A stretch of 35,966 nucleotides of DNA. Origin: a virus. The position numbers and the translations under genes are program-made. Below are positions 1,773-28,219 of the stretch, one piece after another. The stretch covers positions 1 through 35,966 of the IMG/VR virus record IMGVR_UViG_3300032073_000090. The stretch is one strand, 5' to 3'. The notes under the pieces are model-generated. The model ran no database searches. It was not told the origin of the DNA and saw nothing but the letters and a program-made list of their open reading frames with translations. The first letter of the stretch is position 1. Every line of letters starts with the position of its first letter.

Positions 1773-1777
1773 GGGGA

Positions 1778-1785
1778 CACCTCCC
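1778..1785 (-). promoter_or_regulatory. Ribosome-binding site that sets the nucleotidase start
   Basis: GGGAGGTG on the minus strand places GGAGGT six bases before the ATG at 1772. It lies downstream of the alternative ATG at 1790, so it can serve only the shorter form. Confidence 0.75.
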
Positions 1786-1794
1786 TCCATAAGT

Positions 1795-1822
1795 ATAATA
1801 CCATATGCTGTTGTTAGGTCAA
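1795..1822 (-). promoter_or_regulatory. Sigma70-type promoter for nucleotidase-primase genes
   Basis: In the gap between the RuvC-like gene and the nucleotidase, the minus strand reads TTGACC (1822-1817; 5 of 6 to the -35 consensus), a 16-base spacer, then TATTAT (1800-1795; 5 of 6 to the -10 consensus). Transcription would start near 1787-1789, leaving a leader of about 16 bases that carries the GGGAGGTG ribosome-binding site. It would drive the nucleotidase, primase and MKIT-type genes with host RNA polymerase, separately from the structural block. Confidence 0.65.
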
Positions 1823-1826
1823 GTGT

Positions 1827-9473: not shown

Positions 9474-12400
9474 TTATCTTCCTCTCAGCATAAAATATCT
9501 ATTGTATATAGGCAAGTCAAACAAGTCTTTTTTGTCCACGTCAATTCCACTATTGATATCATCTTTTGATATGTTTCTTACACGACACAAGAAACTTGTT
9601 GAAAGGCTTGCATTATAAAATTCTGGTGTAAACTTCTTCCACATTGGCCTCAAAGGTTTACGAGAATAAGAAGGATCTTCAGAATCTACAGTTATTCCAA
9701 ATGAAGACGTTTCAAGATTTTCAAATCCAGATAAGTATTCAATAACCCCTATTTGTTTATAATTCATCCAGAAAGCTAAAAACTTTGCATACGTTTTCAT
9801 TGGATCTCTTGTAGTTTTAAAAGGCGGAAAATCGCTGTTTTCTGAAATGTAAGAAATAGAATCTTTAAATGGTGCAGTATCCGATTCTTGTAATGATGGT
9901 CTAACTACATCAAATCCAGTTCCAAGCGTATTCTTTGTCTGTGAAGCGGCTAAAACAAACATTGCCTTATATTGATTTGGTATAGAGGAATAAATTGTTT
10001 CTATAGAAGCTTGTATACTTGTCTGGTCTATTCCAAGGTCATTGATATTTTTTACCATTGAGTTAAATTTCTCTGCCATATAAGATATGTTATCAGCAAT
10101 TGGGTCTAGTTCGAGTTCCCCAAGAATCGCAAAAGATATCTTCATTGGCGGTAGTCCTGCTGGTGGTGTTGCAAGAACAGATTTATCAATTGCTGCGGGA
10201 TCTTCTATAGCTCCGAACGATCCAGTAGTTGCAGGGTTTATTTTTTGTTCTGTTTTGTTCAAAAATTTAATTGCTTCTTCGTCAGTGTCAAATTCTCCAC
10301 CAAGAATAGCCGCAACTGCACGAGGGGATTCGTCCATTTTTTCACTAAGCTCTGATACACCCACATTTATAACTCTGCGGGGCGCATCGCCTGGGCTAGG
10401 AATAGTGAACTGCTGCTCTGTTCCTTCTGATATTTGAACGCCATGCTCAAATAGTATGTCGTTCACACTATTATACACACCTCTGGTGCCTGGCTCTTGA
10501 TTTTCTACAGATACAAAATGAAGGTCTCCCTTGTCAGAAAAATGTTGTTTTCTTATAATATCAGAAAACATTTCAGCGTAACGATCCAAATCATAAGACA
10601 CAATATTTTGATCTTTTGATTTGTAGTCTGTCTGAACTAAGGTTGGTTTTCCAAATACTTGGATTGCCTTAGGAGAGAAATATTGAAAACTTGAAAGATC
10701 ATACGGAGTATTCTCTACAGTCACTTGTTGTGATGTAGAGCCAGGCTCAATATAGTTTGAAAAATATTTATTAAATTCTTCAGATCGGCGGTCATCAAAA
10801 AAGCTTTTTGAAAATGTTGGTAGTCCGCCAGGATTACTTACATCACCAGCTTCTTGGTCTGACAAATACAAATAACCTGTTCCAAACTCCTTGCCAAAAT
10901 CAAAAAGTTCATCAAAGTGTTTTTTTATAGTCAGAATATTTACATTCCTTTGTTTACTATTGCCAGAAATTTTCTGGAGGCTTGTTGTTGATTCTCCAAG
11001 AGGATCTTTAGGTGCTTTAGTTTCAAGGACTTGCTCTAAAGACCGCTTAAAAGATTCTACAATGTCAGCATATTCTTTAATACCGTATGGGTTTTTTCTC
11101 TTGACCAAGGATAAAAAAGATCTTATCAAAGCATCGTTGCTAAGATTACTTGGACCGGACATTTTAGTAAATAAAGTTACATACTCTGTAATATCATTTT
11201 CCATTACTTCTATTAGTGGTTGACCATCAAATGCAATTGAAGATAATCCTACGAGCCTTTCGTTATTGTCTGGGTCATATAGTCCAACCCCATCAGAAAT
11301 TAATCCTAAGTCGTTTCCTATTTCATTATCAGATGGTGGCGAATTGACAATCATATCATAAGCATTGTAAGCTCGCAAAGATAACAAAGACAATCGTTTT
11401 ACAAACTTTTGAAGATAGTTTAATGACGGGTCGTATATGTTAAAGGATGCTGCATATTGAAATATGCCTCCTGTTTGAGTTTTTAATTTTTCTTCGTATG
11501 TGTCATAACCTTCGTAGAATGCCATTCTTTTTGGAAACACAGGACTCAATTGAGCAGCTACAGACTCTAAGTTCACGGGGGATGGAATAATTTCCTCTGG
11601 CCTATAATAAGATTCTTCAATTTTTTGACGGGCCAAAGTTAAATCATTTACACCTACAGTTCCCTGTTCTTTGACTTGTCTTTTAGACATTACAACGTCT
11701 AAACATTTAGTTGTCTCATGTTCTTCTAGATCAAGATCACCGTCGCCATTAATTAAATCGACAGCAGTGCTTGCGTTCTCATAGAGATAGGGCATATCAC
11801 TATTTTCACTAAGAAACGCTACTTTGTCAAAAACAAATCCAAATCTGGCATTATCATTTTCGCAGCGGGTTATCCACAACTCAGAAAAGAAGTTGTCATT
11901 TTTTACAACATCTGAAAATTCAAGCCCCTGGCTCATACTTCTTATTACTCTATCAGCAGTGTTGTTTAGCATTGTCTTAATATCTAATTTCTCTAGCGAC
12001 TGATAATTTCGAACATCGTCTAATTTTTTAGCTATAGCTGGTAAGCTTTCTTCTCTAATTACAATATCATTCGTAATGAAAGGAGATGACTCTTGGGGCT
12101 TGAATGAATATTCTATACCCTTAAACACTGCTTTCTTGATAAAGCTAAGTCCTGTCTCAAGCAACAGATCTTCTGCGCCTGGAACAGAAGGTATATTTAT
12201 TTTTTGAGACTCTAAGAAAGCTTGATTATCCATGTAGGTAAAAGCATAAAACCTCATCCTAGAAAGGTCTGTGTTCGTATATTGTTCTTTAGATCCTATT
12301 TTAAAAACAATTGGATTTAAAAGAATTTTTTGTAGAACATAGGCTGGCAATTCAGCCGAGCCTGGTGCAGCAGTGTTTTTCTTGACAAGAGTTGTTTTCT

Positions 12401-13022
12401 TGTCTAATAAAGCTTTTCCAGCTTTGTTTCTTTGAATTGCATTACTTAAAGGTATATCGTGTAAAATTATTCCTCTATTTGTAGACCCGTTGCTATAATA
12501 TATTTTATCACCGCCACTATTTTTAATAGATTGCAGTATTTTATTAGAACCAAAGGGACCCGAAGGAGATAAAAGAGAGTAATTACTAGAACCTAATAAA
12601 TTTGTTAGTTGAGAGAAAAAATTATCAGCATCTGCTTCGCCCTTTATTTTCATAAGGTCTGCTTGATACTCGTTCATTCTTTGTGCTATAAAATCAAGTT
12701 CGTCTCCCTGGTCACTAAAACAGGCGATCACTCTAACTCTCATATTATCAATATAGTTTGCAGTATCATACCACCTTGTAAATCCCTGCTGTTCTACTAA
12801 GGACTCCAATATTGCTTCACAGGTTGACGCTTGGATTTTTATTGTTATAGTCTCTTGACCACTTTGTTCCCCGATTGTTTTTATGTCATTAGAAATTTCT
12901 GCTGATTCTATCGCCACAGAGGGAAATGGCGAACTTAAATATGTAAGGTTTGACCGTTCCTGAAGCCCAACAACTCTTGAGGGAAAGAAATTATTTTGGT
13001 TCTGTGCTACTTCGTTTGGCAT
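9474..13022 (-). CDS. Large virion structural protein of unknown family (1182 aa)
   Basis: The chosen start is the ATG at 13022, giving a protein that begins MPNEVAQNQNNFFPSRVVGL. A TTG six bases upstream at 13028 would lie only three bases after the GAGGA ribosome-binding site, while the ATG is nine bases away, so the ATG is preferred. The gene begins two bases after the TGA of the 340-aa gene and ends one base before the TTG of the 1129-aa gene. The protein is acidic and rich in Asp, Ser, Asn, Phe and Tyr, with long helical-looking stretches around residues 270-400 and 560-690 and the terminus NRYFMLRGR. No signal peptide, membrane helix or catalytic motif is visible. From its position among wedge genes it is probably a baseplate component, but I do not recognise it. 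Confidence 0.7.
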   Translation of the reverse strand: MPNEVAQNQNNFFPSRVVGLQERSNLTYLSSPFPSVAIESAEISNDIKTIGEQSGQETITIKIQASTCEAILESLVEQQGFTRWYDTANYIDNMRVRVIACFSDQGDELDFIAQRMNEYQADLMKIKGEADADNFFSQLTNLLGSSNYSLLSPSGPFGSNKILQSIKNSGGDKIYYSNGSTNRGIILHDIPLSNAIQRNKAGKALLDKKTTLVKKNTAAPGSAELPAYVLQKILLNPIVFKIGSKEQYTNTDLSRMRFYAFTYMDNQAFLESQKINIPSVPGAEDLLLETGLSFIKKAVFKGIEYSFKPQESSPFITNDIVIREESLPAIAKKLDDVRNYQSLEKLDIKTMLNNTADRVIRSMSQGLEFSDVVKNDNFFSELWITRCENDNARFGFVFDKVAFLSENSDMPYLYENASTAVDLINGDGDLDLEEHETTKCLDVVMSKRQVKEQGTVGVNDLTLARQKIEESYYRPEEIIPSPVNLESVAAQLSPVFPKRMAFYEGYDTYEEKLKTQTGGIFQYAASFNIYDPSLNYLQKFVKRLSLLSLRAYNAYDMIVNSPPSDNEIGNDLGLISDGVGLYDPDNNERLVGLSSIAFDGQPLIEVMENDITEYVTLFTKMSGPSNLSNDALIRSFLSLVKRKNPYGIKEYADIVESFKRSLEQVLETKAPKDPLGESTTSLQKISGNSKQRNVNILTIKKHFDELFDFGKEFGTGYLYLSDQEAGDVSNPGGLPTFSKSFFDDRRSEEFNKYFSNYIEPGSTSQQVTVENTPYDLSSFQYFSPKAIQVFGKPTLVQTDYKSKDQNIVSYDLDRYAEMFSDIIRKQHFSDKGDLHFVSVENQEPGTRGVYNSVNDILFEHGVQISEGTEQQFTIPSPGDAPRRVINVGVSELSEKMDESPRAVAAILGGEFDTDEEAIKFLNKTEQKINPATTGSFGAIEDPAAIDKSVLATPPAGLPPMKISFAILGELELDPIADNISYMAEKFNSMVKNINDLGIDQTSIQASIETIYSSIPNQYKAMFVLAASQTKNTLGTGFDVVRPSLQESDTAPFKDSISYISENSDFPPFKTTRDPMKTYAKFLAFWMNYKQIGVIEYLSGFENLETSSFGITVDSEDPSYSRKPLRPMWKKFTPEFYNASLSTSFLCRVRNISKDDINSGIDVDKKDLFDLPIYNRYFMLRGR

Positions 13023-13024
13023 TA

Positions 13025-14047
13025 TCAAACATCCTCACAAGGATCAACAGGGTCACTAGCACCACCTTGGTACAGTGTTTCCCCTCTAATTTTAGCATCC
13101 TCTAATCCATCAATCTCATCGTCAACTTTAATCGATAAGAAATACTCAACATAACTAGGATCAAGCTTAGGAATATCTTTTGCAATTATCTCATCATCTC
13201 CAGACAAAACTCTAACATATTCGTCAGGGTCCTCTTGCAACCTCATACTAAACGAATCTTTAAAGCTGTCATTAATAAAACTTAACCTTTTTAGATCCCT
13301 TACCTGGTTTCCTTCACCGTCGGGTGCCCGGAATACTTCAATATCAAAATTGCCGTTACCCTTGAACAAAGTATTTATCTCTTCAACATCAAGAATAAGA
13401 GTTCCCTCATTGGTCAACTCATATATTCTTCTTGTTACTTCTCTGCCACCATCCTCTACAACAACATCATTACCATCAATGTTTATTGTTAACTCATTAA
13501 TCTCATACTCTAATGGTAAGCTTGAGGAGAAAAATGGAACAATAACTTCAGAACCAGAGGCCCCATTTCTATATGGAAAATTCTCTGTTCCAGAAACAGA
13601 TAGAGGCTCACTGCCATTCATTGTTTTTATTTCCCAGGCTGGCATAAAGTTTACAAACGGACTACTGGTTCCTATTGTTCTAGCAAACTTTGCTGTTGCC
13701 GGTGAAATTTGATCTGGGTTAGGGGAAGCTATGTTTGTATTTCTTTGAGCTTCTTCTCCACTTGCTGTAAAAAACTTATAGTTTTTCAGCCAACCACTAT
13801 CACTTATAATTGATACCCGTGGGGTTGTTTTAACTCTCTCAACTATGTCATTCTGAATTTCTTCATCCACCTTTGGACGACTGTTCTTTATGCTGCCGCT
13901 TGGTCCATATTCACTATCATACAAGATATCATCGTCGTGAAATGAATAATACTTAGGGACAAATTTACCCAAGGAAAAAGCAGACCTACCATGAGCGGTA
14001 AGCTCTATATCTATTACTTGTTCTTTTCGATCTAAAAACTTAGACAT
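13025..14047 (-). CDS. Baseplate-cluster structural protein with FLD-GR N-terminal module (340 aa)
   Basis: The 340-aa protein opens MSKFLDRKEQVIDIELTAHG, then RSAFSLGKFVPKYYSFHDDDILYD. This is the same N-terminal module as in the 346-aa protein at 4959-5999, two large genes further along. The remainder is Asp/Glu-rich and ends GASDPVDPCEDV. The ATG overlaps the TGA of the giant gene (TGATG), and its GGAGGT ribosome-binding site is made from the giant protein's last Gly codons, so translation of the two is tightly coupled. The coupling and the shared module suggest a partner that joins the giant wedge protein in the baseplate; that is inference. No enzymatic residues are seen. Confidence 0.74.
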   Translation of the reverse strand: MSKFLDRKEQVIDIELTAHGRSAFSLGKFVPKYYSFHDDDILYDSEYGPSGSIKNSRPKVDEEIQNDIVERVKTTPRVSIISDSGWLKNYKFFTASGEEAQRNTNIASPNPDQISPATAKFARTIGTSSPFVNFMPAWEIKTMNGSEPLSVSGTENFPYRNGASGSEVIVPFFSSSLPLEYEINELTINIDGNDVVVEDGGREVTRRIYELTNEGTLILDVEEINTLFKGNGNFDIEVFRAPDGEGNQVRDLKRLSFINDSFKDSFSMRLQEDPDEYVRVLSGDDEIIAKDIPKLDPSYVEYFLSIKVDDEIDGLEDAKIRGETLYQGGASDPVDPCEDV

Positions 14048-17000
14048 CAGTAACCTCCGCCACCGGATCCACCGCCGCTACCACCGCCGCTGCCGCCGCT
14101 GCCTCTTGGTGGTGCGGGAGGAGTAAAGCTGGGAGGAGCTTGTTGTTGTTCATTTGCTTTAGACATTTCCTCTGAACGTTGGCGCTCCATTTGTGCAGGC
14201 GTCATATTTTCAAATTGTTGTCTATATTGATCTGGAACTTTACTTACATCAAAATCTTCTGGTATCAAAGGTTGTTCGTCCATATTAGGATCCACTTGGG
14301 GCTGCTCCTGTGGCAAAACTTCTGGTCCTTCTATCAGTGGCGGCTGCTCTATCAATACTGCACCTTCAGGTAATTGTGGGATAGGCGGTGCCACCGTAGG
14401 AGCAACCGGAGAAGACGTTTGAATTACTGGAGTTGGTGCAGGTGTTGCCATCCTCTTCTCTTCTTCTCTAGCTGCGACCGCTTGTTGTTGCTGGCGCACG
14501 GCACGGCTTCTAGAATTATTTTTCTGTTCTTCAGAAATATCTTCAACCTCTCTATCTAGTTCCGGTCTAAAGCCTACCTTCATAGACATTTTGCCCAATT
14601 CAATTAGAGAGAAGTAATCGTAAGGCCAATTATAAGTGTTTCCACCAAGCCCCAATTCATCACTGACAAAGAGCCCTTTAGTATATGATGCTTTCTTACG
14701 TCTTAAGAATTCTTTTTGTTCTTCTGGTAGGTTTTCAGCTATGACGCCGAACACACTATCATAAGAAAGTGCCTCTGGCCCATTTAGCTCTTCGGATATA
14801 AACCTTGAAAAGGTTTCTACGCCTCTTTGCTTGACCCTGTATACCATCCACCTTATCTCTGGAATAAATCCATCTAGTTTACCATCTGCTGGTATGTCTA
14901 ACATATCAACTCGTGGGTGTCCGTTTCTTGACAGTCCAAGCTCAAGCTCTTTTAGCAAAAGTTCGGGGAAGACTGTCTTAGACCCAGCGGCGGATTTAGC
15001 ATCACCAGGCATATAGTGATCAATTGCCGACACACTTGATTTCATGGAAGCTGCAATATCAGGCATAATTCCTTGCCAGATATCCGCTAGGTCTTGTCTT
15101 GAAAGCGCAACACTATGTTCCATCAAATATACAAGTGGGACACTAGCATCCCTATCTGATGATAGTAAGGAGTCGTAATCGTCACCGCCAAATGGATTAA
15201 TGTAGGAAGAAACCTTAGGATAGTTTGGCGGCAATAAATTAGAAAGCTGCTTTTTGAGCGATGGCGGTAAAGAATATTTTGTAAACGCACGTCTAAATTC
15301 TTTTAGCTTAGGTCCTAGAGCAGTCCCATTACCCTTCAAGGTCATAACTCTCATTTGCTGTGACGAAGGATCCATATAATACGGCATTGCTATAATAGCT
15401 TCTGAAATAACTTTTTCGTTATTTTCTGCTAGCGTACCGAGTCTTCTTGCCTTCGATGGCAGGAAAGCTCCAGGAACCTGGATGTCGTCTTCCTTGAATC
15501 CTACCAGTTTAGCTAACGAGTCAACTTCTCTTCCTGCGTCAATAACAAACTTCGGCACCTTCTTAACAGTTTGAACTTTCGCAGTTCCAGATAAGAATGT
15601 TCCTGTTGCTTCTCTTGTTCTCTGTGCTCCAGACCCTGTAGGATTACCCAAGAGTCTAAGCTCAGTTGAATCGAGAGAAACATCAGAAATATACATAAAG
15701 ATTCCCTCTGATGAACCAGAAGGCATTGTTCCATACTGATGCCACATCCCCTCTACTTTTGGTTCGTGGGTTCCTGGCTCAACAGATGCACTGAAATCGT
15801 GCGGTGTCTGTCCAATATCCGTAGGGAAGTCTAATATCGGGCACTCCCATTTCGGCATAATGGTCCACTTGTTTTTATCTTTAGGTGACAAATCTGCACC
15901 ATCGGTCGGAAATACATTATCTACAACTATAGATGAATCTATATCTTGTCTGTTTTGCCATGCTCTATTAAATCCGTAGGCAGGAACCCCATCCAAAGAT
16001 AAAACTTGCTCGTTAGCTCCGATAAAGGAACCAGAATCAAAGTCATAATAATAACCGTTTTCATTGTTATATTCAACAAATAAATCTTCACCGCTGAGGA
16101 TGTTCTCAAGTGTAACCTCTCCATTCTCACGGGGCGTATATGTAATTCTAACAATACTCGGACCATAGTAATATGCAGGAGTAAATGGTGCAAACTCTGC
16201 CCTATGGTATGGCCACTCTCTGCCTTGTGGTAGTCCACCAGATTGTTCGGCTGTAGCAATTGTAAATGTTGGTGGTGTTTGTCCACCGTGGAATGGTCCT
16301 TGAGCAGTTACGCCAGCATTTAGTTGATCCGGTTGAACTGCGGAACCTACAATCTCCTTTGCATTAAATAATTTAGTTTTAAACTGTTGTGTAAGTAAAA
16401 CAGCACCAGTGCCAGCGTCTACATCTGCACGCATAAATAAATTGCCATTAGCTCTTGCAAGAGAAATTGCAGCAGCTATTCTATTACCTAAACCAACAGG
16501 GTCGCCAATACCCCCCACTCCTATTGTATATTCAGTTGCGCTTGCTCTTGCTGGATTTGTTGAACTTTTATCAAATTCAAAAGTAACTCTAGCTTCGGTG
16601 CCGTCTTCAACTGATCCAGTAATTCCTATAAATTTACCGTCAATTTGGTTTTCATCAAAGTTGTTTGGCTCCAAACTAGCTGTAGCTCCAACACCATATT
16701 CAATAGCGGTTAAAGTAGTAGCAGCACCAGGACCAGCGCATAACATCTCATTCCAATCGAATGAGCCTGTAGAAGTAGAGGGGCCAAAAGCTGCCGGATT
16801 ACTATACATCATGTGTCTTTCGGTTTGCTTTACGCCGATTTCCATAATGTAAGCTTTGTTTTTTGATACCCTCACTGTTCTTGCTTCAGTTTGTTGAGCG
16901 GGAGCAGCGCCGGCTGGGTTATCTGCCGGGGCACGAGTTGGTATCTCTGCTACAAACTTAGATAAAAACCCGCCGTCTCTCTGTTCTTTCAAGAAGAATG

Positions 17001-20000
17001 TTGGTATATTTGCCATAAAGTTTGACATTCCAAGACGATATAGATCATCGTCTGCTTGGAAAGTTGCAGTCACAGCTACTTCTGATTCGCCTGATTCGAA
17101 TGTATAGTTAACAATGTTTCCAGATGTTGGAATGGAGGCTGTGATTTCAGTATACATTGTAGGGTTTGTATCTGCTAAAACTATACCTCGTTTAGCATCT
17201 GAAATATGTTCCAATGGTTTAAATATTCCTTCGAACGGAATTACGTCGGAATAAAACATATTATGTGGGGCACCACGAGACTGGTCTTTCAACTGGTCTC
17301 CTTCTAGTCCTACATCAAGCTTAAAGAAATCAAAATTATCAGCAGCGCCTTCTTTTCTTCTTCTACGTCCGCCAGGAATTGTAATAGCTGCTTCGTTAGT
17401 TCCGGTTGGTAATGGTCCACCAGTAGAATAAGACCAGAGTATTGACTCGCTCAAGTGACCGTGCAAAGGATCCTGTATTGAACAAGACTGTAAAGCACTC
17501 ATACCCTTTCTTATGATTGGATATGAAACTGCCATCCCAGCCTTAATTGAGTTGTAAATAATTCCAGGCGCAAAGAAAGGTCTAGATATTGCTCGGAATC
17601 CTCGTTGAACCTTGATGCCTGATGGATCAGCATCCGGAAGAAAATCTTTATAGTTTGGTGCCCCGTTGGTATACCCTTCTCCTTCGTATATAATACAGTT
17701 ATCATAAGACTTGGAAAATAAGGTAGCTAGCTCGAGGGTTCTTAGCACTGGATAAAAACCATCATATGGAAGCATCTTCATAATAGCATCTGATTTAATC
17801 TCAAGATGTCTGGGGTCTTTATTGAATTGAGAATCTTTTGAGTCTTTAGCCATAAAAGTCTTAAGATATTCTGCCACATCAGAAGTTGCATATCTTGGAA
17901 AGAAATCTTCTTCCACACTGTTAAAAGGTGAACCATCAATGTTTGGTGTAGCTCCAGTGATATCTAAAGCAGCAGAAAGAGAAGAAGCAAAATTACCTAA
18001 CTCTTTATATTTGGGCATCAAGGTGCTAATTCTATACTCAGGAATTATAGTGTACTCTTTGCCTTTGTTTTTAACTTCTGCACACCAGTCTTCGTAGCTA
18101 TTATACCAGGGAAATCTTGCTGGTGCCTGAGAGCGTCGCTCGGGTCCATCTACAAACTTTCTTATTCTTCCAGCGGTCCAGCCTGGTCTTGTAAGAGCCC
18201 CACCAACTGCTCGGGCGTCAGCGATGAACTTAGATGATCCGTTTGCCAAATCAGTTACACGAATCAACTCAGTAGGAACTGTGTATACATATTGTGAAGT
18301 GTTTATGCTGGAAGTGTTCCATCTAACACCACCTCGTTGGGAACCACTGTTAGCTGCATTTCCACTCATCACAATTCCGTAATGAGGCATCATTAGTTCA
18401 CCAGCCGGCAAAGTTGATGCCATGGCATACATCAAAGGTGTACCTATATTTGTCCCACTAAAGGTGCCCGTTGGTAATCCAAGTGGAGATGTATAATTAC
18501 CGTCTCGGTTTATGCTGGGGTATTGTTCGCAATAATAGAAAGAATCTAATGGCCATATTGACGCTGAACCTCTACCATTTCCAATGGCGTCTCGTGTATA
18601 CGGTGTTGGATCTAGAGGAGGTGCCCACCCATTATTACCAGAAGCATCACTTGCAAATGTTCCAGTTGGGTATTGTTCATCCATTGTATAATGGTACCCA
18701 AATGATGATTTTATATTATTATCGCCAAAATCGGAAATCTGTCTTCTTTCCCAAGAGTTGTTATACTCTTCTATGTTACCTTCATCAATTAGGTCTGGAA
18801 TTCCTGTGAATGTTTTTATTATAAAAACATCTGCGGCAGCGCCAGCAGGTCGTTTTGTTGCAGACCCCGTTGTTATGTCTGAGCGCCAGAAATTATTTTT
18901 ATAAACGTTTCTAGTTCTTGAAGACGATAAATATGTATATATTTCTTTAGGATATATTGTTTCCTCATAACTCATCATTTTAATAAGTTCTACGCCGTCA
19001 GTTGAAGGATCTACATTATCAACAAATGTATCTCTAAGAACCTCATAGGGTCTCTTAATTGCTCCAAGTTTAAAACCCTGTTTATTTCCCAGGTCTATAT
19101 TGAGACCTCGGTTAGCAAACCCTTGTAATTCATTTCCGTAAGAATATCTCAATGTCACATCGACTGATTTGTTCTCTGTGGAATTAGCAGAGCCACGATA
19201 TGTTTTTATCTGATGTATAATCGGCTTATATCTTGACGTCAAAATCGGTTCTTTATATTTTTTGCTTACGTTATGAGATACACGATTGCCACCTATAATA
19301 GTGCCACCATCGTTTAATGATCTATCATAGGCTGATACAATAGATTTCTCAAGATCTGATACAGATTCTGCTTTGGTTGTAGCTATTAATCTTTTCCCTG
19401 TTGGAAACTCAACTTCTTCTGACTGAAGTGTTATTTTTGACGCATCTATTGTGTAAAGGTTTTGCCTAGAATTAAACAACCCTTTATTCGTATACTGACC
19501 AAATCTTGTCTGTGTCCAAGGCACCCATCCGCCTAGACCATTAGCTTCCCAAATATATTGATATGCATTTGATTTGTTTCTAAACACCCCAGACATTTTC
19601 AATGCAGCAGCAGGATAAAGTCTGCCAAGCTCCAACGCAGCTATAGAAGAACTATAGATTGTTATATCCGCTGGAAACCTAGAAGACGATAGTATAAACT
19701 TATGAAAGTTGTCTCCGTAATTACGACCGGGCCAATCACCCACAGTTCCCTGTGAGTGGGAGAGCCTCATAAACCAAGATAAGCGGTCGCCATCAGGTAT
19801 AGGTCTTGTAATAAAAGCATTATCACGCAATGCACCTGTTACATATAATTCTTGATTCGCTGGATCATTTAGGTTCCCTGAAACAAACTTCGGTCTTAGG
19901 ATAGTGTTTCTTTGTGTCTTATGTATAGCCACCAAAGAAGCTGTATGCTCAGATAGGTCATCGCCATATAAAGCAGTGGGAGGGACCACAACCCCTTCGT

Positions 20001-23000
20001 TAAATGGAGTCAAGTCGGTAGAATCGTGGCGAGTCAACAAAGTGTTCAGAGATGCTGTTTGGAATCCTCCCCATCCGGTGTGTCGCTTAAGCAATGTATT
20101 GTGCTTTTGGCGTACATCAATGTTCCTAAAAGGCAGCGCATTATTTGGAGAATACTGATCGGATGGACCATCTCTAAACAACTGTTTGGAATCTAGCTTG
20201 CTACCAGGAGAAGAGAACCTGTCCACAATAACTGTTTTGTTTATCCTAACATCACTTCTTTGTCGGGGAGCTTGGTAATCAACTGATCCTGTAAAGCCAG
20301 CGGCACGACGAGATACCGAAGTTAGGAAAGCAGTTGGCATTTTACCGTTTGTCAGAACAGCAACCGATAAGGCATCATTACTGCCAGTAAAATACTGATC
20401 ACTATGGAAAGTAAAATCTATGTTCGTATCGTCACGATTTGAGATATTTACAATTTCATAGTTTTTAGTATAATTACCTATAACTTGGACGCCGCCCTCT
20501 GGAGCGATAGATCCTGTGCTAGTTTGTATGTTTTCTATATTTACGGGTCGAGAAGCGCCTGAACCTCTTTTGTATTGTCCCTTGGGTGTCGGTCCTGTTT
20601 TGTTGGTCTCAAAGGACCCGCCGCCGTCGCCAGCAACTTCTAGTTCATAAGACTCTTTACGAACAGTTTTTGATGCATCAAACTTTGCACCTACTGGTGC
20701 TTGTCTTGACTGTTGTCCACCAACGTGTGCTAAGGTAAATGGTGTTTGTACTGCGGCTGGTCTAACATGCAAATTAGCAAAATCAGTGTTTGTAATTCCA
20801 GCACTTTGTAATTGTTTTTGATACCCTGTGGTAACTGTTGAACTAACAGGAGTAAATGGTAAAACAGATTTTCCGTCTACATCACGTCCTTCAATCGAGG
20901 CGCTTAAAGTCCGTGTGCTCTTGAGATTTGGAATGAGTTCTTTCTCATCAAGATCCATATCGCCCTGCGGTGGCTCGTCAAATGTGCCAAACGATACTCC
21001 GGCTACACCAACCTCTTGCTTCGTTTCTTTCTGGTTTCCAACATCAGCGTTTGTGACCTGAACTTCTTGAGGTACTTCGCCACTAATAGTTACTATTCCT
21101 CGTGGAAGATAAAAAGATTGCGCTTGCTTTAGAATGGCCTGTCTAGATTCCATTACACCAGGATTAGATTGCGATATTGTTGGATGATATCTTTCTGCCC
21201 TAGTCATCCACCAAAATGTATTTTGGTTTTCTCTTGGCAGAGACGAAGGCAAAGGAGCATGGTTTACTTCCCAGCCAAGAGGCTGTTGTACGTTTCCATC
21301 TTTTGAAACATTTTTAATCTTCTTTGGATTAGTAACATTTTTTGGAGGCAAAACCGGCTTGTTCGGATTCATATTAACTACTGGTTTAATAGGGGTTTGT
21401 CCGGCAGGGGGTGCATCCTCTAGGGTAATATTCGATATCACTGGGGCTTGAGGCGAGTTTTGCCCAACGCTTTGCGGGGAGTTATCTTTTCGGTTGCCCA
21501 TGAAAGTATACTTGAATTTAGCTCGCTCAAGAAGGTGACTCTCAACAACATTTCTAACCCCAGGGGCAAACTTTACGCTAGCAGGAAATAACTGCTCAAG
21601 CATCTGCCCCAAGGACATATCAACCCACTGATAGTAATCTAAATACTTTTGGAGGTCTGGTGTATTACCAACCTTGGAAAAGAATATTTGTCTTAGTTTT
21701 TCCATCGCCTTATAATTTGGACGATATCTGTTTACAGGATCACCAATGAGATTGTTAAGCTCTTCGACTGAAGAGAAAAGATGTAACATTCTCTCCGATA
21801 CGCTTCTGTACATACTTTTTTCTATAGCATAATAAAGCCTCTCAGGACGCATCAGTGGAGCATATGCTTCATCATCTATATTCTTAAGCTTGATCATATC
21901 ACTGCTGATAGCATATTCCGGTAGTTCCATCCTGTCAGTGTATAATAATTCTTTTCTTATTGGTGTTGAGGATGCAGGGAAGTGATCTCCTCGTCCTGTG
22001 TATTGTCTGTAGTTTATGTGCTGTGGGGATGCCCAGTACACACTCCCCCTACTTCCAGAATCCAAGGACCCAGATGAAAAATCATTTACGTTAAAACGTC
22101 CCGAAGAATCGCTGCCTGTAATATCTGCAAAGTCCCAATGCAAAGCCAGTGTTTCTATCTGAGGTATATAAATTCCAGGATTATATTTTTGATCTGTGTA
22201 AGCCTGGCGAGTGGGATTAAATCTTCCATAGTTATCCACGCTTCGTGCATGCATATCAATGGTTCCTGTACTAAGAACATCAGTCCAATACCTTAAACTG
22301 GAGCCTCGCACATCACTAGCATTTACCACTGTGCCAGAAAAGTTTGTTCTGGCTGCTCCCATATAAAATCTTTTTGGTCCAGAAACAATATCAGATCCTG
22401 ACTTGTAAGTCAAGGACGCTGTTGCATAAAGGCTGTTTCTTTTTATTCCGGAATCATAATTTACAGCGTAAAAATCAAGATCATAACCATCATGCACATT
22501 AGCATTAGAGCTAGAATTTTGTGCAAAAGGAAATCTCTTTGGGTGAACAGATAATGCAATATTCCATTTCTGGTTATCGTAAGCATTTGTAAACACAGAA
22601 GACGTAAGTATTACATTGTTGTGCCTATCTAGGACTTTAAAAAACACATCCTTAACTTTATGAGCGGGGCTTAATACCTCGGCCATTTCAGAAGCAGATT
22701 TAATGGCTACAACCTGTAAACCAGCATCGTGTTGTGCCCACATCCAACTTGTATCCGTGGAAGAGGACAGGAGTTTATCTTCTCCTCGTGGAGTGTGCCA
22801 ACCAAACAACGATGAAGTTACTACCTGTACTGGAGTGTAACTAAGTGTTTCTATTTCGCTTCTGTCTGGGAATACAAACTCTGCTTCTGCTGTAAACCCA
22901 AAATCAATCAAAGTAACACTGCCACTGCTTCCACTTATGACACCATAAGACTCTGGCAGATCTGGGTTGGGATATTGATATATCGTTGCGTCAGATGAGT

Positions 23001-24939
23001 CCCTCTTGAAAAGACCAGTGAAATCAGCATATTTTTTATTGCTAGTATCTGCTCGATAATTTGTTTCCAGTTTGTAGGTTGAGTTATCTGAGTATATGCT
23101 TAGGTTTATAACATCCTCATCCACACCAAAGCACCGAATAAAGTTTCGTATTGCTTTTTCATTTCCTTTTGATTTGAAAATATGATTCAAGTTATTATAA
23201 AGATTTTTGTATAAAGTATTCTTTATGGAACTTAAATCTTGTTCAAAGTTGATATCATTTCCCCTCTTAAGGAAATGCGCTAATAAATCAGCGTTCTCAA
23301 ATAATTCAGGGGCTTCCATCCCTAAGTTTTCTACTAACCTATCATTATAAGGAAATTCATTAATACTACCTGTGGCACTACCACTAACGTAGTCCATAGC
23401 TTTTATCTTAGTCAAGGAGGATATTTGAGAATGCAGCGTATCAAAATAATTCGCCATTATCTGGGTTACATTTTTTAGCTCAGAGCCGAACCTAGCATCC
23501 TCCTCCACAATCCAATCTGGTACTGAGTTTAACACATACGCCGTGTTTGTTCTGTCGTGCTGCTCGCCTATCTGCTTTAACTCATCTCTTCTTACCGTTA
23601 CCACAGATGCAGAGGGGAAAATTATTGGATCTTCTACCTCAGTCCTAGAACTTACCGATTGGGTTAAAGATTGTAGGGTTATAGCAGACCCAGTATCTCT
23701 TGCTCCAGCAGCATAGCCTGTCCAGTTTCCATTTGAAATTCTACCAGAGTAATCTAATACTAAATTGTCTACACTGCCTGTGCCAGAAATACCCTCATTA
23801 AATTTATAGTAAACTCCTAGAGAAACGTTTGCATCTTGAGTATTACTGCCGCCATTAATGTCTGTAAACCAATTTCTTCCAATCTGTTCACCAGTGCGTG
23901 CTGATTTCCAGAACCTAAACTCATCGAGAGCCCCCGAAAGTTTTCCATAGCCTTCAACTGGCCCCGAGACACCTGATGGTTCATTGCGAAGAGCACCCAG
24001 GTTGCCGATTAAAGTTCCAGTTACCAGGCTAATTTGTCCAGCCTGGTGCCCAGTTGCTGCAATGCCCGCTTCGTGACACACTCCGTTGATATAAAAATCA
24101 ATAGTTGGTGAACTCTCTGAAGTGTTGAATACAAAAGCAAATTGGTTCCAGCTACTACCAGTAATATAATTTCCTATGTTGCCAGTAGTTGGAATTGACT
24201 GTGTTACATAACCCTTTGTTCCAGAGAGCATAGTGACCAAGAAACGGTCTTCAAGGCTTTTAGATAATTCAATTCTAAGATTTCCGTAACATCCATTTGT
24301 TTCATCATCGCCTATAGAGCCAGTCCGAACTCCGTTCCATAAATCAAAGATGACTTGGCGAGGAGACTGGGTAGTAACATCTGCGCCGCCACCAGGGATA
24401 GCAGATTTAGACAAGAAGAACTCAACAGTTGAACCACTTGGTCCACCAAACTCTAGATTATTTTGTCTATAATTTGAAGAATATAAAGTTCCCGAATGAG
24501 GTCCACCTTTAACCTGAATGTATTCTGTTTTTGGAGAGTTGTAATAATGAGAACTATGAGATACAGCAGTACCGTAATTTGTTCCAATATTTACAAACCC
24601 AGTGCTCTTAGGGTATCTCTCATTAAAAACATACTTCTCTAGTGGATTTAAATCATTGTAGAATTTTTCTTTTTCATATTTAGACCCATCATAGGGATAG
24701 TTTTGCAAAATATGATTAAAAGCATTTTCATAGTATTTTTCTGCTGATCCATACTTTGCAAATTGTGCTGGATCACCATAATCAAGCGCAGGAATAAATT
24801 CATCTCGACGGCGCAAGCTTTCACTTAAGTGGTGAGCAGATTCTATACCACCACTTAAGTCACCTACAGCACTCTTTTTGAGGTACTTCCCTACAGCGGT
24901 AGATTGCTTACTTTGTTCAAATAACTTTTTTATACTCAT
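14047..24939 (-). CDS. Giant baseplate/tail protein with two LamG-like segments (3630 aa)
   Basis: This single 3630-aa frame dominates the window. Residues 1-120 form a helical N-terminal region containing KYYENAFNHILQNYPYDGSK and LEKYVFNERYPKSTGF, of a type I recall from very large marine phage proteins. Residues about 155-420 look like a LamG/concanavalin-type jelly roll, with NQFAFVFN, IDFYINGV and LSGALDEFRFWKSART. Residues about 440-630 are helical. Residues about 680-905 repeat jelly-roll landmarks (KWNIALSV, FYMGAARTNFSG, LRYWTDVL). Residues about 1030-1145 are again helical. A Pro/Asn/Lys linker (about 1150-1215) precedes a long Ser/Gly/Tyr-rich body. The last 157 residues are Pro/Gln-rich and end in a Gly/Ser run (3613-3629) and Tyr. 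It follows the gp6-like and DNRLRE-like genes, the place of gp7 (about 1032 aa) in T4, so it may be a greatly enlarged wedge protein with sugar-binding domains; that is inference. Start: ATG overlapping the upstream stop (ATGA). Confidence 0.75.
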   Translation of the reverse strand: MSIKKLFEQSKQSTAVGKYLKKSAVGDLSGGIESAHHLSESLRRRDEFIPALDYGDPAQFAKYGSAEKYYENAFNHILQNYPYDGSKYEKEKFYNDLNPLEKYVFNERYPKSTGFVNIGTNYGTAVSHSSHYYNSPKTEYIQVKGGPHSGTLYSSNYRQNNLEFGGPSGSTVEFFLSKSAIPGGGADVTTQSPRQVIFDLWNGVRTGSIGDDETNGCYGNLRIELSKSLEDRFLVTMLSGTKGYVTQSIPTTGNIGNYITGSSWNQFAFVFNTSESSPTIDFYINGVCHEAGIAATGHQAGQISLVTGTLIGNLGALRNEPSGVSGPVEGYGKLSGALDEFRFWKSARTGEQIGRNWFTDINGGSNTQDANVSLGVYYKFNEGISGTGSVDNLVLDYSGRISNGNWTGYAAGARDTGSAITLQSLTQSVSSRTEVEDPIIFPSASVVTVRRDELKQIGEQHDRTNTAYVLNSVPDWIVEEDARFGSELKNVTQIMANYFDTLHSQISSLTKIKAMDYVSGSATGSINEFPYNDRLVENLGMEAPELFENADLLAHFLKRGNDINFEQDLSSIKNTLYKNLYNNLNHIFKSKGNEKAIRNFIRCFGVDEDVINLSIYSDNSTYKLETNYRADTSNKKYADFTGLFKRDSSDATIYQYPNPDLPESYGVISGSSGSVTLIDFGFTAEAEFVFPDRSEIETLSYTPVQVVTSSLFGWHTPRGEDKLLSSSTDTSWMWAQHDAGLQVVAIKSASEMAEVLSPAHKVKDVFFKVLDRHNNVILTSSVFTNAYDNQKWNIALSVHPKRFPFAQNSSSNANVHDGYDLDFYAVNYDSGIKRNSLYATASLTYKSGSDIVSGPKRFYMGAARTNFSGTVVNASDVRGSSLRYWTDVLSTGTIDMHARSVDNYGRFNPTRQAYTDQKYNPGIYIPQIETLALHWDFADITGSDSSGRFNVNDFSSGSLDSGSRGSVYWASPQHINYRQYTGRGDHFPASSTPIRKELLYTDRMELPEYAISSDMIKLKNIDDEAYAPLMRPERLYYAIEKSMYRSVSERMLHLFSSVEELNNLIGDPVNRYRPNYKAMEKLRQIFFSKVGNTPDLQKYLDYYQWVDMSLGQMLEQLFPASVKFAPGVRNVVESHLLERAKFKYTFMGNRKDNSPQSVGQNSPQAPVISNITLEDAPPAGQTPIKPVVNMNPNKPVLPPKNVTNPKKIKNVSKDGNVQQPLGWEVNHAPLPSSLPRENQNTFWWMTRAERYHPTISQSNPGVMESRQAILKQAQSFYLPRGIVTISGEVPQEVQVTNADVGNQKETKQEVGVAGVSFGTFDEPPQGDMDLDEKELIPNLKSTRTLSASIEGRDVDGKSVLPFTPVSSTVTTGYQKQLQSAGITNTDFANLHVRPAAVQTPFTLAHVGGQQSRQAPVGAKFDASKTVRKESYELEVAGDGGGSFETNKTGPTPKGQYKRGSGASRPVNIENIQTSTGSIAPEGGVQVIGNYTKNYEIVNISNRDDTNIDFTFHSDQYFTGSNDALSVAVLTNGKMPTAFLTSVSRRAAGFTGSVDYQAPRQRSDVRINKTVIVDRFSSPGSKLDSKQLFRDGPSDQYSPNNALPFRNIDVRQKHNTLLKRHTGWGGFQTASLNTLLTRHDSTDLTPFNEGVVVPPTALYGDDLSEHTASLVAIHKTQRNTILRPKFVSGNLNDPANQELYVTGALRDNAFITRPIPDGDRLSWFMRLSHSQGTVGDWPGRNYGDNFHKFILSSSRFPADITIYSSSIAALELGRLYPAAALKMSGVFRNKSNAYQYIWEANGLGGWVPWTQTRFGQYTNKGLFNSRQNLYTIDASKITLQSEEVEFPTGKRLIATTKAESVSDLEKSIVSAYDRSLNDGGTIIGGNRVSHNVSKKYKEPILTSRYKPIIHQIKTYRGSANSTENKSVDVTLRYSYGNELQGFANRGLNIDLGNKQGFKLGAIKRPYEVLRDTFVDNVDPSTDGVELIKMMSYEETIYPKEIYTYLSSSRTRNVYKNNFWRSDITTGSATKRPAGAAADVFIIKTFTGIPDLIDEGNIEEYNNSWERRQISDFGDNNIKSSFGYHYTMDEQYPTGTFASDASGNNGWAPPLDPTPYTRDAIGNGRGSASIWPLDSFYYCEQYPSINRDGNYTSPLGLPTGTFSGTNIGTPLMYAMASTLPAGELMMPHYGIVMSGNAANSGSQRGGVRWNTSSINTSQYVYTVPTELIRVTDLANGSSKFIADARAVGGALTRPGWTAGRIRKFVDGPERRSQAPARFPWYNSYEDWCAEVKNKGKEYTIIPEYRISTLMPKYKELGNFASSLSAALDITGATPNIDGSPFNSVEEDFFPRYATSDVAEYLKTFMAKDSKDSQFNKDPRHLEIKSDAIMKMLPYDGFYPVLRTLELATLFSKSYDNCIIYEGEGYTNGAPNYKDFLPDADPSGIKVQRGFRAISRPFFAPGIIYNSIKAGMAVSYPIIRKGMSALQSCSIQDPLHGHLSESILWSYSTGGPLPTGTNEAAITIPGGRRRRKEGAADNFDFFKLDVGLEGDQLKDQSRGAPHNMFYSDVIPFEGIFKPLEHISDAKRGIVLADTNPTMYTEITASIPTSGNIVNYTFESGESEVAVTATFQADDDLYRLGMSNFMANIPTFFLKEQRDGGFLSKFVAEIPTRAPADNPAGAAPAQQTEARTVRVSKNKAYIMEIGVKQTERHMMYSNPAAFGPSTSTGSFDWNEMLCAGPGAATTLTAIEYGVGATASLEPNNFDENQIDGKFIGITGSVEDGTEARVTFEFDKSSTNPARASATEYTIGVGGIGDPVGLGNRIAAAISLARANGNLFMRADVDAGTGAVLLTQQFKTKLFNAKEIVGSAVQPDQLNAGVTAQGPFHGGQTPPTFTIATAEQSGGLPQGREWPYHRAEFAPFTPAYYYGPSIVRITYTPRENGEVTLENILSGEDLFVEYNNENGYYYDFDSGSFIGANEQVLSLDGVPAYGFNRAWQNRQDIDSSIVVDNVFPTDGADLSPKDKNKWTIMPKWECPILDFPTDIGQTPHDFSASVEPGTHEPKVEGMWHQYGTMPSGSSEGIFMYISDVSLDSTELRLLGNPTGSGAQRTREATGTFLSGTAKVQTVKKVPKFVIDAGREVDSLAKLVGFKEDDIQVPGAFLPSKARRLGTLAENNEKVISEAIIAMPYYMDPSSQQMRVMTLKGNGTALGPKLKEFRRAFTKYSLPPSLKKQLSNLLPPNYPKVSSYINPFGGDDYDSLLSSDRDASVPLVYLMEHSVALSRQDLADIWQGIMPDIAASMKSSVSAIDHYMPGDAKSAAGSKTVFPELLLKELELGLSRNGHPRVDMLDIPADGKLDGFIPEIRWMVYRVKQRGVETFSRFISEELNGPEALSYDSVFGVIAENLPEEQKEFLRRKKASYTKGLFVSDELGLGGNTYNWPYDYFSLIELGKMSMKVGFRPELDREVEDISEEQKNNSRSRAVRQQQQAVAAREEEKRMATPAPTPVIQTSSPVAPTVAPPIPQLPEGAVLIEQPPLIEGPEVLPQEQPQVDPNMDEQPLIPEDFDVSKVPDQYRQQFENMTPAQMERQRSEEMSKANEQQQAPPSFTPPAPPRGSGGSGGGSGGGSGGGGY
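14053..14058 (-). promoter_or_regulatory. Ribosome-binding site embedded in the Gly tail of the giant gene
   Basis: GGAGGT, five bases before the ATG at 14047, is formed by the last two Gly codons (GGA GGT) of the 3630-aa protein just before its Tyr and stop codons. Confidence 0.65.
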
Positions 24940-26426
24940 ATGGGTTCTTCATCAACCTTAAATTTGAAAATCTCTGGTTGCTCTACATACTTTCCGTTCA
25001 AGTAATAAACAAACTGAAATCCATATGCATACCCCTGATCTAATATACTTGTATCTAAATCAAAATAATTTCCGCTAACATCGTAAGACATCTTCGTGTG
25101 GTTATATGTTCCTGTTCCATATGGGATTACTTCCAAATTATCAACAACTCGGAACAATCTCCAATAAGCGTCTTCTATTATTTGTGTTGGCGGCTCAGAG
25201 GCAGCCAAGGTATAAATATTTGGGTTCCAATTTTTTTCACGAGCATAAACTCTAAACACAGGTTTTTGCCCCTTGACATATGACTTTTTAAGATTTGTTA
25301 TATCAGATAAATGTTGGGTTTCGTATTCCACAAAGCTTGCAGACAATCCTTCAAGATCAATAGAGCCTGTAAAATATTCTATACTTCCGGAGTGCCAAAC
25401 ATCGTGAATAACATCCAAAGAACTTGTTGTTGCGAAAGAACAGCTATAAATTCCTGTTTGTGCAACCCCATTTTCTACAACAATACCACCTGTAATTTCT
25501 TGCTGCACTAATCCACCCGCATCTAAAACATGCAAACGATGTCCTGCTGGTAGATTATCATTACTACTACTAAAGAAACTTACATATATTTTTTGTTCTG
25601 TACCAGCAAGGCTTGGTATATCCTTTAATTGACCTCTTATCTTGTTGTACAAATAAACTTTATTTAGGTTATCTGCCGCAGGGGCCAAAGCACTTGAAAT
25701 AAAACTCATGCCACGCTGGTCTTTTCTTGCTGAGTCCCAACGAGCTTCTATGTACGGTCTCTTTAAAAAATATTCGCTTGTTCTTCCAAAGAACTTTTTA
25801 GTATAGTAAGACCCCGAGGATCCTGAAATTATAGGGTCTGGGTGCTTAAGCATAAATCCATAGTTAGTTGCGGTGCCCGCCCCGTCTGATCTCCATTTAT
25901 CGACAGCAAATGTGACGTCAACATCAATATCTTCTATGCCGCCAGAAAAGTGGAAACTTGAAGAATAACTAGAGCTATTGAAATAGTCTCCACCTTGCAC
26001 TTCCCAGTCAGTTCCATCAGCACTGTTTATCCAGTTGCAAGGCCCTGCATCAGAATATTCGCTCATATCTAAGCCACGACCCTCTGTCCAAGATTTACTC
26101 ATCATTGCTACATTCAAAGAATACTCATACGGTAAACTATCAGCGTGAGGGGCATTAAACATTTTTAGCCTATATTCCACACTAGATGAGGGTATGGTTC
26201 CATCTGTAATGTCTGAAACAATACTATCAATTGGAAACTGTATTAAAATTCTTGACTGCTCGGCATTAGTAGCATTAACAGAAGCCGAAGTTTGTCCGTG
26301 AATAACAAACGCCTCTAAAATATCAGAGGCACCCATATTTGAGCCTGTCCCTCTTGTAAGAAGGTTTGCCTTAAAGGCATTTGTTATTGTGTTATCTTGG
26401 TCTGCAAAATATCTTTTTATGCCCAT
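24936..26426 (-). CDS. Structural protein with DNRLRE-like N-terminal domain (496 aa)
   Basis: The 496-aa protein starts MGIKRYFADQDNTITNAFKA. Residues about 12-195 have the pattern of DNRLRE-type beta-sandwich domains: DNTITNAF, a buried strand SRILIQFPIDSI, YRLKMFNA, the SWTEGRGLD...NWINSADGTDW segment, and VDKWRSDG...NYGFMLKHP. Such domains are structural or adhesive in secreted and virion proteins. The C-terminal part (about 210-496) contains further beta-rich sequence (YVSFFSSSNDNLPAG, KPVFRVYAREKNWNPNIYT). The gene is locked between the gp6-like gene (TAATG, one-base overlap) and the giant gene (ATGA overlap), so the three products are made together and probably assemble together in the baseplate wedge. 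The ribosome-binding site is AGGAG ten bases upstream. The domain assignment is from pattern memory, not a search. Confidence 0.72.
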   Translation of the reverse strand: MGIKRYFADQDNTITNAFKANLLTRGTGSNMGASDILEAFVIHGQTSASVNATNAEQSRILIQFPIDSIVSDITDGTIPSSSVEYRLKMFNAPHADSLPYEYSLNVAMMSKSWTEGRGLDMSEYSDAGPCNWINSADGTDWEVQGGDYFNSSSYSSSFHFSGGIEDIDVDVTFAVDKWRSDGAGTATNYGFMLKHPDPIISGSSGSYYTKKFFGRTSEYFLKRPYIEARWDSARKDQRGMSFISSALAPAADNLNKVYLYNKIRGQLKDIPSLAGTEQKIYVSFFSSSNDNLPAGHRLHVLDAGGLVQQEITGGIVVENGVAQTGIYSCSFATTSSLDVIHDVWHSGSIEYFTGSIDLEGLSASFVEYETQHLSDITNLKKSYVKGQKPVFRVYAREKNWNPNIYTLAASEPPTQIIEDAYWRLFRVVDNLEVIPYGTGTYNHTKMSYDVSGNYFDLDTSILDQGYAYGFQFVYYLNGKYVEQPEIFKFKVDEEPI

Positions 26427-28219
26427 TATTTGATAACTCCTGAAATATCGTCATCTGGAAACAGAATATCTGCTACAGCATCCGCCGGGATGGCCAAGAA
26501 TCTTCCATCAGAAGATAGATTCTTTTCTATCTCATAATTGAAAGAACTGTAAGAACCACCCGTCTTATTAATTAGTTTCACGGCAGTCGTATCAACAACG
26601 CCAGGAACACTATTTAGGTGCTTAAATATTTCTGTCAAATAAACAGGCTCTCCCATTTCATTTGCTACGTTTAAAAGTTTTTCTTTAAGTCTTATTACGC
26701 AGTTGTTTAACACTTCAAATCTGTTAGAGTCTGTTTCGGCTATAACTTCAAATTCTATCCCATAGTTAATTATTTTCCCGTCAAGAATATCTACGCTGTC
26801 ATTTATCATCCTATATCTGTCAAGCCAGGATTTCAAATTTGTTTTTAGTTGTGTTGTTGGCGCTGCAAATTTTCCATTGACATTTTCCGCTAAAACATAT
26901 AAGTTTAAATTGCGTCTAGTAGATCGTGGGTCTTGAATTATATTAACTCTTTTTACCTTGCCAAACCCATTAGGCATTCTATACGATAAGCTAATATAAT
27001 CAGTTCTTGTTACTGCTCTGTTTTGAGACGCAAATGATGCATATGCTCTTGTTTTAATTTCTTCTGCTGTTAATTCAGAAGTGTCTCCCAGGATTGGTTC
27101 TGGGTTTTCAACCTCCAAAGAATCAATAACGGTACCCGCTGTTTCATCGTTCAAGGCTGGTCTATTTGTAAAAGTTAAATTTGACTCAACTACATCGTTA
27201 ACAGTGCTGCCGGCAGAGTTTACAGTGCTTGAAGTATTTCCTCTATACACTACAGTAAGAGTTGTATTTTCTGGAACAACACCAAACTTGTCAGTCTTTA
27301 TTAAATTAGTTGGATCAAAAGTTGGATCGCTTACATAATTTCTTCCCGTCACATCCAACACAACATCTGCCGGGTTTGCAATTAGGTCTCCTGTTAAATT
27401 ATCTGCTGAACCATATCCAAACTGCAAGAATGCATTCCCATTTGTGTCGAATTCTGTTACAAATCTTCTTGGACAAGGTTTTGTTTTCATAATAAACGGA
27501 ACAAGATCTCGGTTTGTTCCTCTGTTAGGTTCCTTGGATATGACAACATCCTGTGTGAGATAATCAACTTGAAAATACTCATTTCCTTGAGAGTCTACAA
27601 CAGATATTATTTCTGACACATCAGAGGCTGCCAATCTTAGTCTTAAAAATCTTTCGTAATTTGTTACAGAAACCTCCTCTTCAAACAGCCTTCCAGAAAC
27701 AACAGTTCCCTGACCCTTGATTGCAAAGAAAGTTGGAACACCAGTATCAGAATCCACCCTAGCTACAGTTATCTCGTTATTTGGGGCTGTAAAATCTACA
27801 TCTTGCGTCAATGTATATACAGCGCCGCTTTGTGATCCAACTAACGATCCACGTTTTAAAATAGGTATGTAACTGGTGTCAGGACCACCGCTGGTTGTTG
27901 ATGCTGGTATTAAGATGTAAAAATTACATATTCCTGTTGAAGTAGCTGCTCCGGGTTGCTTGAAACCCATTTGTTTAGCTATTCTTTGAACGTTTGGTAA
28001 TTCTATAGCTGTATCTAGGAAACTTTCGTTTGCTTGATAGTCTGTATAGAAAGAAAGTTGATCACCGACATAAGATACCAAATCAAGCATCATAGCTCCA
28101 AATGAAGCCTCGTTAAAGTCTTGATAAGTATTTGCATAATAACGTTTTGCGTAGTTGACCAAAGACTCTTTGATTGAGTCAAATTCTCTACTTGTATAAT
28201 TGATAGGTCTTTTTGACAT
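26426..28219 (-). CDS. Baseplate wedge protein, T4 gp6-like / baseplate J family
   Basis: The 597-aa protein begins MSKRPINYTSREFDSIKESL, followed by NEASFGAMMLDLVSYVGDQLSFYTDYQANESFLDTA. This is the classic N-terminus of gp6/baseplate J-like wedge proteins, where the capsid-distal iris of the baseplate is built. The region from about residue 385, with RAVTRTDYISLSYRMPNGFG, and the later INYGIEFEVIAETDSNRFEV are also typical. Length is near T4 gp6 (660 aa). In contractile tails this protein joins with the gp25 homologue to hold the tube-sheath junction and trigger sheath contraction. The gene follows the gp25-like gene after a 26-base gap with a GAGGT ribosome-binding site six bases upstream. 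Adjacency of gp25 and gp6 homologues is a hallmark of contractile injection machines. Confidence 0.93.
   Translation of the reverse strand: MSKRPINYTSREFDSIKESLVNYAKRYYANTYQDFNEASFGAMMLDLVSYVGDQLSFYTDYQANESFLDTAIELPNVQRIAKQMGFKQPGAATSTGICNFYILIPASTTSGGPDTSYIPILKRGSLVGSQSGAVYTLTQDVDFTAPNNEITVARVDSDTGVPTFFAIKGQGTVVSGRLFEEEVSVTNYERFLRLRLAASDVSEIISVVDSQGNEYFQVDYLTQDVVISKEPNRGTNRDLVPFIMKTKPCPRRFVTEFDTNGNAFLQFGYGSADNLTGDLIANPADVVLDVTGRNYVSDPTFDPTNLIKTDKFGVVPENTTLTVVYRGNTSSTVNSAGSTVNDVVESNLTFTNRPALNDETAGTVIDSLEVENPEPILGDTSELTAEEIKTRAYASFASQNRAVTRTDYISLSYRMPNGFGKVKRVNIIQDPRSTRRNLNLYVLAENVNGKFAAPTTQLKTNLKSWLDRYRMINDSVDILDGKIINYGIEFEVIAETDSNRFEVLNNCVIRLKEKLLNVANEMGEPVYLTEIFKHLNSVPGVVDTTAVKLINKTGGSYSSFNYEIEKNLSSDGRFLAIPADAVADILFPDDDISGVIK

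Follow-up and report, generated by a model that had tools for sequence, protein, structure and literature searches.

The best described counterparts of the locus reported here belong to the baseplate wedges of contractile-tailed phages. In T4, gp7 (1,032 aa; NP_049765) is encoded in the wedge operon directly after gp6, and in P2 the gene for gpI (176 aa; Tail_P2_I, PF09684) follows J, the counterpart of gp6. Each wedge of XM1, (gp16)2-gp17, joins one scaffold subunit (gp17, 242 aa) to two gp6-type subunits, with extensions that hold spikes (PMC10457771). A survey of pelagimyophages reports no T4 gp7 in them, with VrlC apparently in its place (PMC7029224); VrlC is a large protein of pelagimyophages and cyanophages that is said to stand in for gp7.

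Giant proteins in the gp7 slot are known from cultured cyanophages: P-SSM2 gp7 has 5,195 aa, S-SSM7 gp7 3,007, the S-PM2 protein (S-PM2p084) 3,048 and that of P-RSM6 8,573. They follow gp25 and gp6 in marine T4-like phages and carry a KG[T/I] motif, and their N-termini have the T4 gp7 motif in common (E 1.8e-6). The P-RSM6 protein (NC_020855; 8908-34629 of our extract L179) is annotated as a 'virion structural protein', lies directly after gp6 and has its KG motif at aa 712. As cyanophages carry gp7-slot proteins of 3,007-8,573 aa, the size of the protein described below is by itself not new, nor is it exceptional for marine T4-like phages.

We analyzed a 35,966-nt stretch of viral DNA (IMG/VR record IMGVR_UViG_3300032073_000090, positions 1 to 35,966; hereafter, the window). 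Its genes run in the order gp25, gp6, a 496-aa gene and a giant gene, followed by further genes of the same block:

28246..28650, minus strand: gp25-like wedge protein, 134 aa (Pfam GPW_gp25, E 2.8e-12)
26426..28219, minus strand: gp6-like baseplate wedge protein, 597 aa (PHROG baseplate wedge, E 4e-20; 34% identity to Mel-JY01)
24936..26426, minus strand: 496-aa neighbor (hmmsearch E 2e-22 to 7e-18 to the post-gp6 proteins of Mel-JY01, 386 aa, immuto, 369 aa, and LR756508, 420 aa)
14047..24939, minus strand: giant protein, 3,630 aa, whole frame including the stop codon (homologs, dN/dS)
13025..14047, minus strand: 340-aa gene after the giant (conserved order)
9474..13028, minus strand: 1,184-aa putative protein without assigned function (conserved order)
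6083..9472, minus strand: 1,129-aa putative protein without assigned function (conserved order)

A first-pass annotation had placed the giant among gp25/gp6-type genes, in the position of T4 gp7. The profile matches bear out the neighbors. The position applies in so far as the giant occupies a slot in a wedge operon with gp25 and gp6, but the intervening 496-aa gene means that it does not directly follow gp6 as gp7 does in T4. The giant's first 4 bases are also the last 4 of the 496-aa gene, and its stop codon runs into the start of the 340-aa gene, an arrangement like that of an operon.

The giant is encoded by a single unbroken minus-strand frame of 10,893 bases, from an ATG at 24939 to a stop ending at 14047, giving a 3,630-aa protein with a computed mass of 400 kDa and occupying 30% of the window. 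The same frame, length and share of the window had been reported in the first pass, where the strand was not given, and homologs and substitution rates agree with them. Scanning IMG/VR with the giant protein returned 10 contigs with full-length, near full-length or contig-cut homologs at 42-95% identity, in which the surrounding gene order is kept. Against the nearest relative (95% identical), dN/dS was 0.072 for the whole protein, 0.044 for the N-terminal unit and 0.057 for the C-terminal unit; the frame is under purifying selection. The homologs and the low dN/dS together indicate that this is not a chance open frame. A tblastn search of 50,697 phage records with two pieces of the giant, aa 1-1331 and aa 1332-3297, gave no match, and neither did a search with the initial 25 kb of the window.

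We divided the giant into the following regions, based on structure models, conservation and homology:

24607..24939, minus strand: short N-terminal helical region, aa 1-111 (AlphaFold2 model)
23629..24606, minus strand: first jelly roll, LamG/pentraxin type, aa 112-437 (Pfam Laminin_G_3 E 3.4e-4, below the cut-off; structure Z 19.6 to 4dqa and 17.9 to C-reactive protein)
23110..23607, minus strand: helical wedge-core region, aa 445-610, with a PDWIVEED..YFDTL segment and then KSKGNEKAIRNFIRCFG (model; homology to Microcystis, Flavobacterium and LR756508 proteins)
23125..23175, minus strand: KG[T/N] motif, aa 589-605 (46 of 50 family rows; picked out by hhalign against gpI)
21970..22992, minus strand: second jelly-roll-like domain, aa ~650-990 (model strands; tandem LamG chains align through it; colinear with the Microcystis phage protein)
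21502..21822, minus strand: conserved helical end of unit 1, aa 1040-1146, LDYYQWVDMSLGQMLEQLFPASVKFAPGVRNVVESHLLER (conservation and homology)
21280..21501, minus strand: P-rich variable linker, aa 1147-1220 (drop in identity; gene split here in several relatives)
18043..21279, minus strand: middle region, aa 1221-2299 (moderately conserved; extra split points in some relatives)
14500..18042, minus strand: compact C-terminal unit, aa 2300-3480 (AlphaFold2 pTM 0.78, pLDDT 74.5)
14050..14499, minus strand: Q/P/G-rich variable tail, aa 3481-3630 (sequence; low identity)

AlphaFold2 modeling of aa 1-1150 from an alignment of 63 rows (pLDDT 74.7, pTM 0.48) gave the jelly roll at aa 112-437, the helical region at 445-610, a second beta-rich domain and a helical end; confidence in the helical core is partly low, and lowest at about aa 513-583. 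In a structure search, the modeled aa 112-437 gave a best Z of 19.6 over 205 residues (rmsd 2.8), confirming the predicted LamG/ConA-like fold. Chains with two LamG domains aligned across ~330 residues, from aa 112 to 939-988, suggesting a second jelly roll at aa ~650-990. The two jelly-roll segments proposed from the sequence are thus established for the first and suggested for the second. When the whole-unit model (aa 1-1150) was searched, LamG chains took up the match list, and PHROG, Pfam and solved-structure profile searches of the N-terminal unit likewise returned nothing but LamG. Conservation collapses at aa 1141-1220 and again beyond aa 3480, where the low-complexity sequence matches the disordered tail noted in the first pass.

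For the C-terminal unit, modeled as aa 2300-3480 from a 68-row alignment, the structure search found no PDB chain at Z >= 5, a result from which a novel fold does not follow. Searching BFVD with this unit returned unnamed marine viral homologs only. Within it, ~120 aa (aa ~2760-2880; window 16300-16660, minus strand) are missing or unrecognizable in two relatives (L007 and L010), which suggests an optional inserted module.

The window's gp6 leads to three phages: Flavobacterium phage immuto, Microcystis phage Mel-JY01 (34% identity) and an uncultured phage of 484 kb (LR756508). These phages largely share the order gp25, gp6, 496-aa homolog, slot protein: their post-gp6 proteins of 369-420 aa are homologous to the 496-aa protein (E 7e-18 to 2e-22), and an extra gene precedes the slot protein in immuto (112 aa) and Mel-JY01 (413 aa). 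The slot proteins themselves are hypothetical or unannotated (Mel-JY01 WWT39511, 1,336 aa; immuto YP_010114574, 1,265 aa; an LR756508 ORF, 1,400 aa). A profile of giant aa 440-1146 matched them at E 4e-26, with single comparisons at 1e-12 to 1e-13, and the alignment is colinear in Mel-JY01 and LR756508. Homology together with the shared slot of these 1,265-1,400-aa proteins identifies giant aa 440-1146 as a common wedge-slot unit. They differ from the giant in having their own N-terminal ~400 aa and in lacking its C-terminal part of ~2,400 aa; beyond the slot unit, the giant adds a LamG domain before it and ~2,480 residues after it.

Does this unit correspond to gp7? The KG[T/N] motif occurs in 46 of 50 family rows and also in T4 gp7, P2 gpI and six of eight tested slot proteins from cyanophages, Microcystis and Flavobacterium phages and uncultured phages; it is missing from four family rows and from the immuto and S-H34 proteins. 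In T4 gp7, as in the giant, the KG motif is followed by a strand and preceded by a P-x..D..F..Y segment, and gpI shares the helix-KGT-helix-G-strand arrangement. Decoys gave 2 matches in 274,264 aa, or 0.005 expected per 700 aa, a figure that is optimistic because the pattern was written after the sequences had been viewed.

Profile comparison did not detect significant homology to T4 gp7 (hhalign E 0.58, away from the core; 0.16; and 0.023, at an unrelated place likewise outside the core) or to P2 gpI (E 0.094, aligned on the KG[T/N] motif). In a control, gp7 and gpI compared in a 70-residue window reached E 1.9e-4, a spurious value, so nothing can be decided from such profile scores. No Pfam or PHROG wedge model matched the giant, and PF09684 matched none of 50 family members and nothing in seven long related contigs. 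A search of these contigs for a T4-type gp7 elsewhere, run without a positive control, found none, and PF09215 revealed no gp8 here. Compared with the giant, T4 gp7 is 3.5 times shorter and has no 2,400-aa C-terminal extension.

The conserved gp25-gp6-496-giant order, together with sheath and T4-type capsid genes in all seven long contigs, makes the placement of the giant in the baseplate wedge well supported. The slot and the shared KG[T/N] motif make a gp7-like role likely, and homology to T4 gp7 is not proven. The part with a counterpart in the wedge slot of distant phages is aa ~440-1146 only; the remainder of the chain consists of added modules, encoded by a separate gene in some relatives.

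We think it probable, if far from settled, that the giant combines a wedge scaffold of gp7 type, doing the job that gp7 does in T4 or gpI in P2, with a large peripheral baseplate protein fused to its C-terminal side. The scaffold role is modeled on the (gp6)2-gp7 arrangement as described for XM1, whose gp17 is likened to the giant by role only (PMC10457771). The helical core of unit 1 (aa 1-1146) would pack against two copies of gp6 in each of six wedges, with the LamG jelly rolls sitting beside it. A flexible linker would then lead to ~2,300 aa that end in the compact unit (aa 2300-3480) and would form or hold the outer baseplate, followed by the disordered tail. With both parts in one chain, every wedge would be sure to receive one outer module, and a signal arising at the periphery could be passed on to the sheath.

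LamG folds often bind glycans. The modeled LamG domains are therefore possible receptor-binding modules within the wedge, and this same property favors a different reading, in which the giant is a LamG-bearing, receptor-binding peripheral baseplate protein or adhesin whose place in the wedge operon would be incidental, the true gp7 counterpart being another gene. The 496-aa protein would be one candidate for that counterpart, being equally conserved in order and directly after gp6, and the absence of sequence homology between the giant and T4 gp7 fits as well. We nevertheless regard this alternative as unlikely, though it deserves serious attention: unit 1 retains a non-LamG helical core homologous to the same-slot proteins of distant phages, and it bears the gp7/gpI KG[T/N] motif, in a scan that covered the giant's family, T4 gp7, P2 gpI and the slot proteins of other phages.

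Homologs of unit 1 (the first ~1,150 aa) occur in hundreds of viral contigs, with at least 462 related stretches; family members in BFVD are all unnamed proteins. Seven long related contigs (150-193 kb) each carry exactly one copy of the unit-1 family. A contractile-sheath match is present in every one of them, above the curated cut-off in four, and so is a capsid gene of the T4 Gp23 type (E 1e-60 or better).

The C-terminal part is also encoded in all 69 unit-1 contigs with enough DNA. Among 78 contigs, both units lie in one ORF in 56 and in separate ORFs in 13, and 9 end before the C-terminal unit becomes visible; closed ORFs range from 1,155 to 4,031 aa. In several relatives the ORF ends just past unit 1 and the remainder is the next gene, and in others the break falls elsewhere, always before aa ~2275 and hence before the compact C-terminal unit. 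In a unit-1 tree built with FastTree, the fused or split state changed at least 8 times, in several independent lineages.

The 13 split contigs imply that the parts can work unfused. They are also compatible with cleavage of the giant chain by a protease during assembly, such that the virion would hold separate wedge and peripheral proteins as in the split-gene relatives, and the P-rich variable linker (aa 1147-1220) also fits this reading. We consider this improbable, as the fused form predominates (56 of 69) and the putative cleavage has no known site. Artefacts can be set aside as very improbable: metagenomic assemblies do contain errors and some splits occur in single contigs, but at the junctions, in several independent lineages, the start codons are ordinary and the spacing is ATGA, TAA-ATG or a short gap, which speaks against sequencing frameshifts, and conservation of the long frame (dN/dS 0.07) largely refutes a chance open frame. 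In three split-gene relatives (L088, 12300-12330; L090, 13756-13790; L091, 13726-13760), a similar spacer (ACTAGTTACTAAATG) precedes the second start codon and is possibly a promoter or ribosome-binding element.

Building on the wedge-scaffold reading, we offer a more tentative conjecture, which we would not expect to hold in full: that aa 2300-3480 may adopt a new fold and build the outer baseplate in a widespread group of uncultured marine myoviruses. Most lineages would have this part joined covalently to the wedge scaffold and others would encode it as a gene of its own, and repeated gene fission and fusion would have rewired the connection from host recognition to firing of the sheath.

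What is new here is the giant's family, its split/fused architecture and a C-terminal unit without a PDB match; giant size in the gp7 slot was already known. In the papers we searched, we found none on this family, and both family and architecture appear undescribed there. The analysis offers a testable identity for an uncharacterized protein family of hundreds of viral contigs. Because relatives carry the protein both split and fused, the border between wedge unit and added module can be read off from them, which makes fragment expression, complex prediction and the mapping of parts for host recognition practical.

The cyanophage giants differ from the window giant in having the core motif near the N terminus, not after a LamG domain, and a gp8 gene nearby. 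Profile comparison of both units with the S-PM2, S-SSM7, P-SSM2 and P-RSM6 giants gave a best E of 0.026, on the KG motif, which is not significant. Marine contractile phages have reached such sizes of the gp7-slot protein by different, not detectably related routes. VrlC, a large protein like the giant and said to stand in for gp7 in its own phages (PMC7029224), was rejected as a counterpart of the C-terminal unit or of the neighboring genes. We took the 2,747-aa 'Virulence Associated protein' of S-PM2 to be VrlC, and it had no profile match with the C-terminal unit, the core or the 340-, 1,184- and 1,129-aa proteins.

A unit-1 homolog (41% identity, ORF of 1,559 aa) also lies at ~588-593 kb of CP070664.1 (L167, 5938-10617), a 2.8-Mb metagenome-assembled genome labeled candidate division WOR-3 bacterium, and would reflect either an integrated phage or a misassembly. 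In the window itself, the 2,082-aa protein upstream of gp25 (28661-34909, minus strand) contains, by eye, a LysM-like stretch (KYTVKEGDWLSKIAIRNDTTVEALLALEA...). The low-coordinate end (219-2399, minus strand) encodes apparently non-structural proteins, by eye primase-like with a zinc ribbon (315 aa), phosphatase-like (207 aa) and RuvC-like (190 aa).
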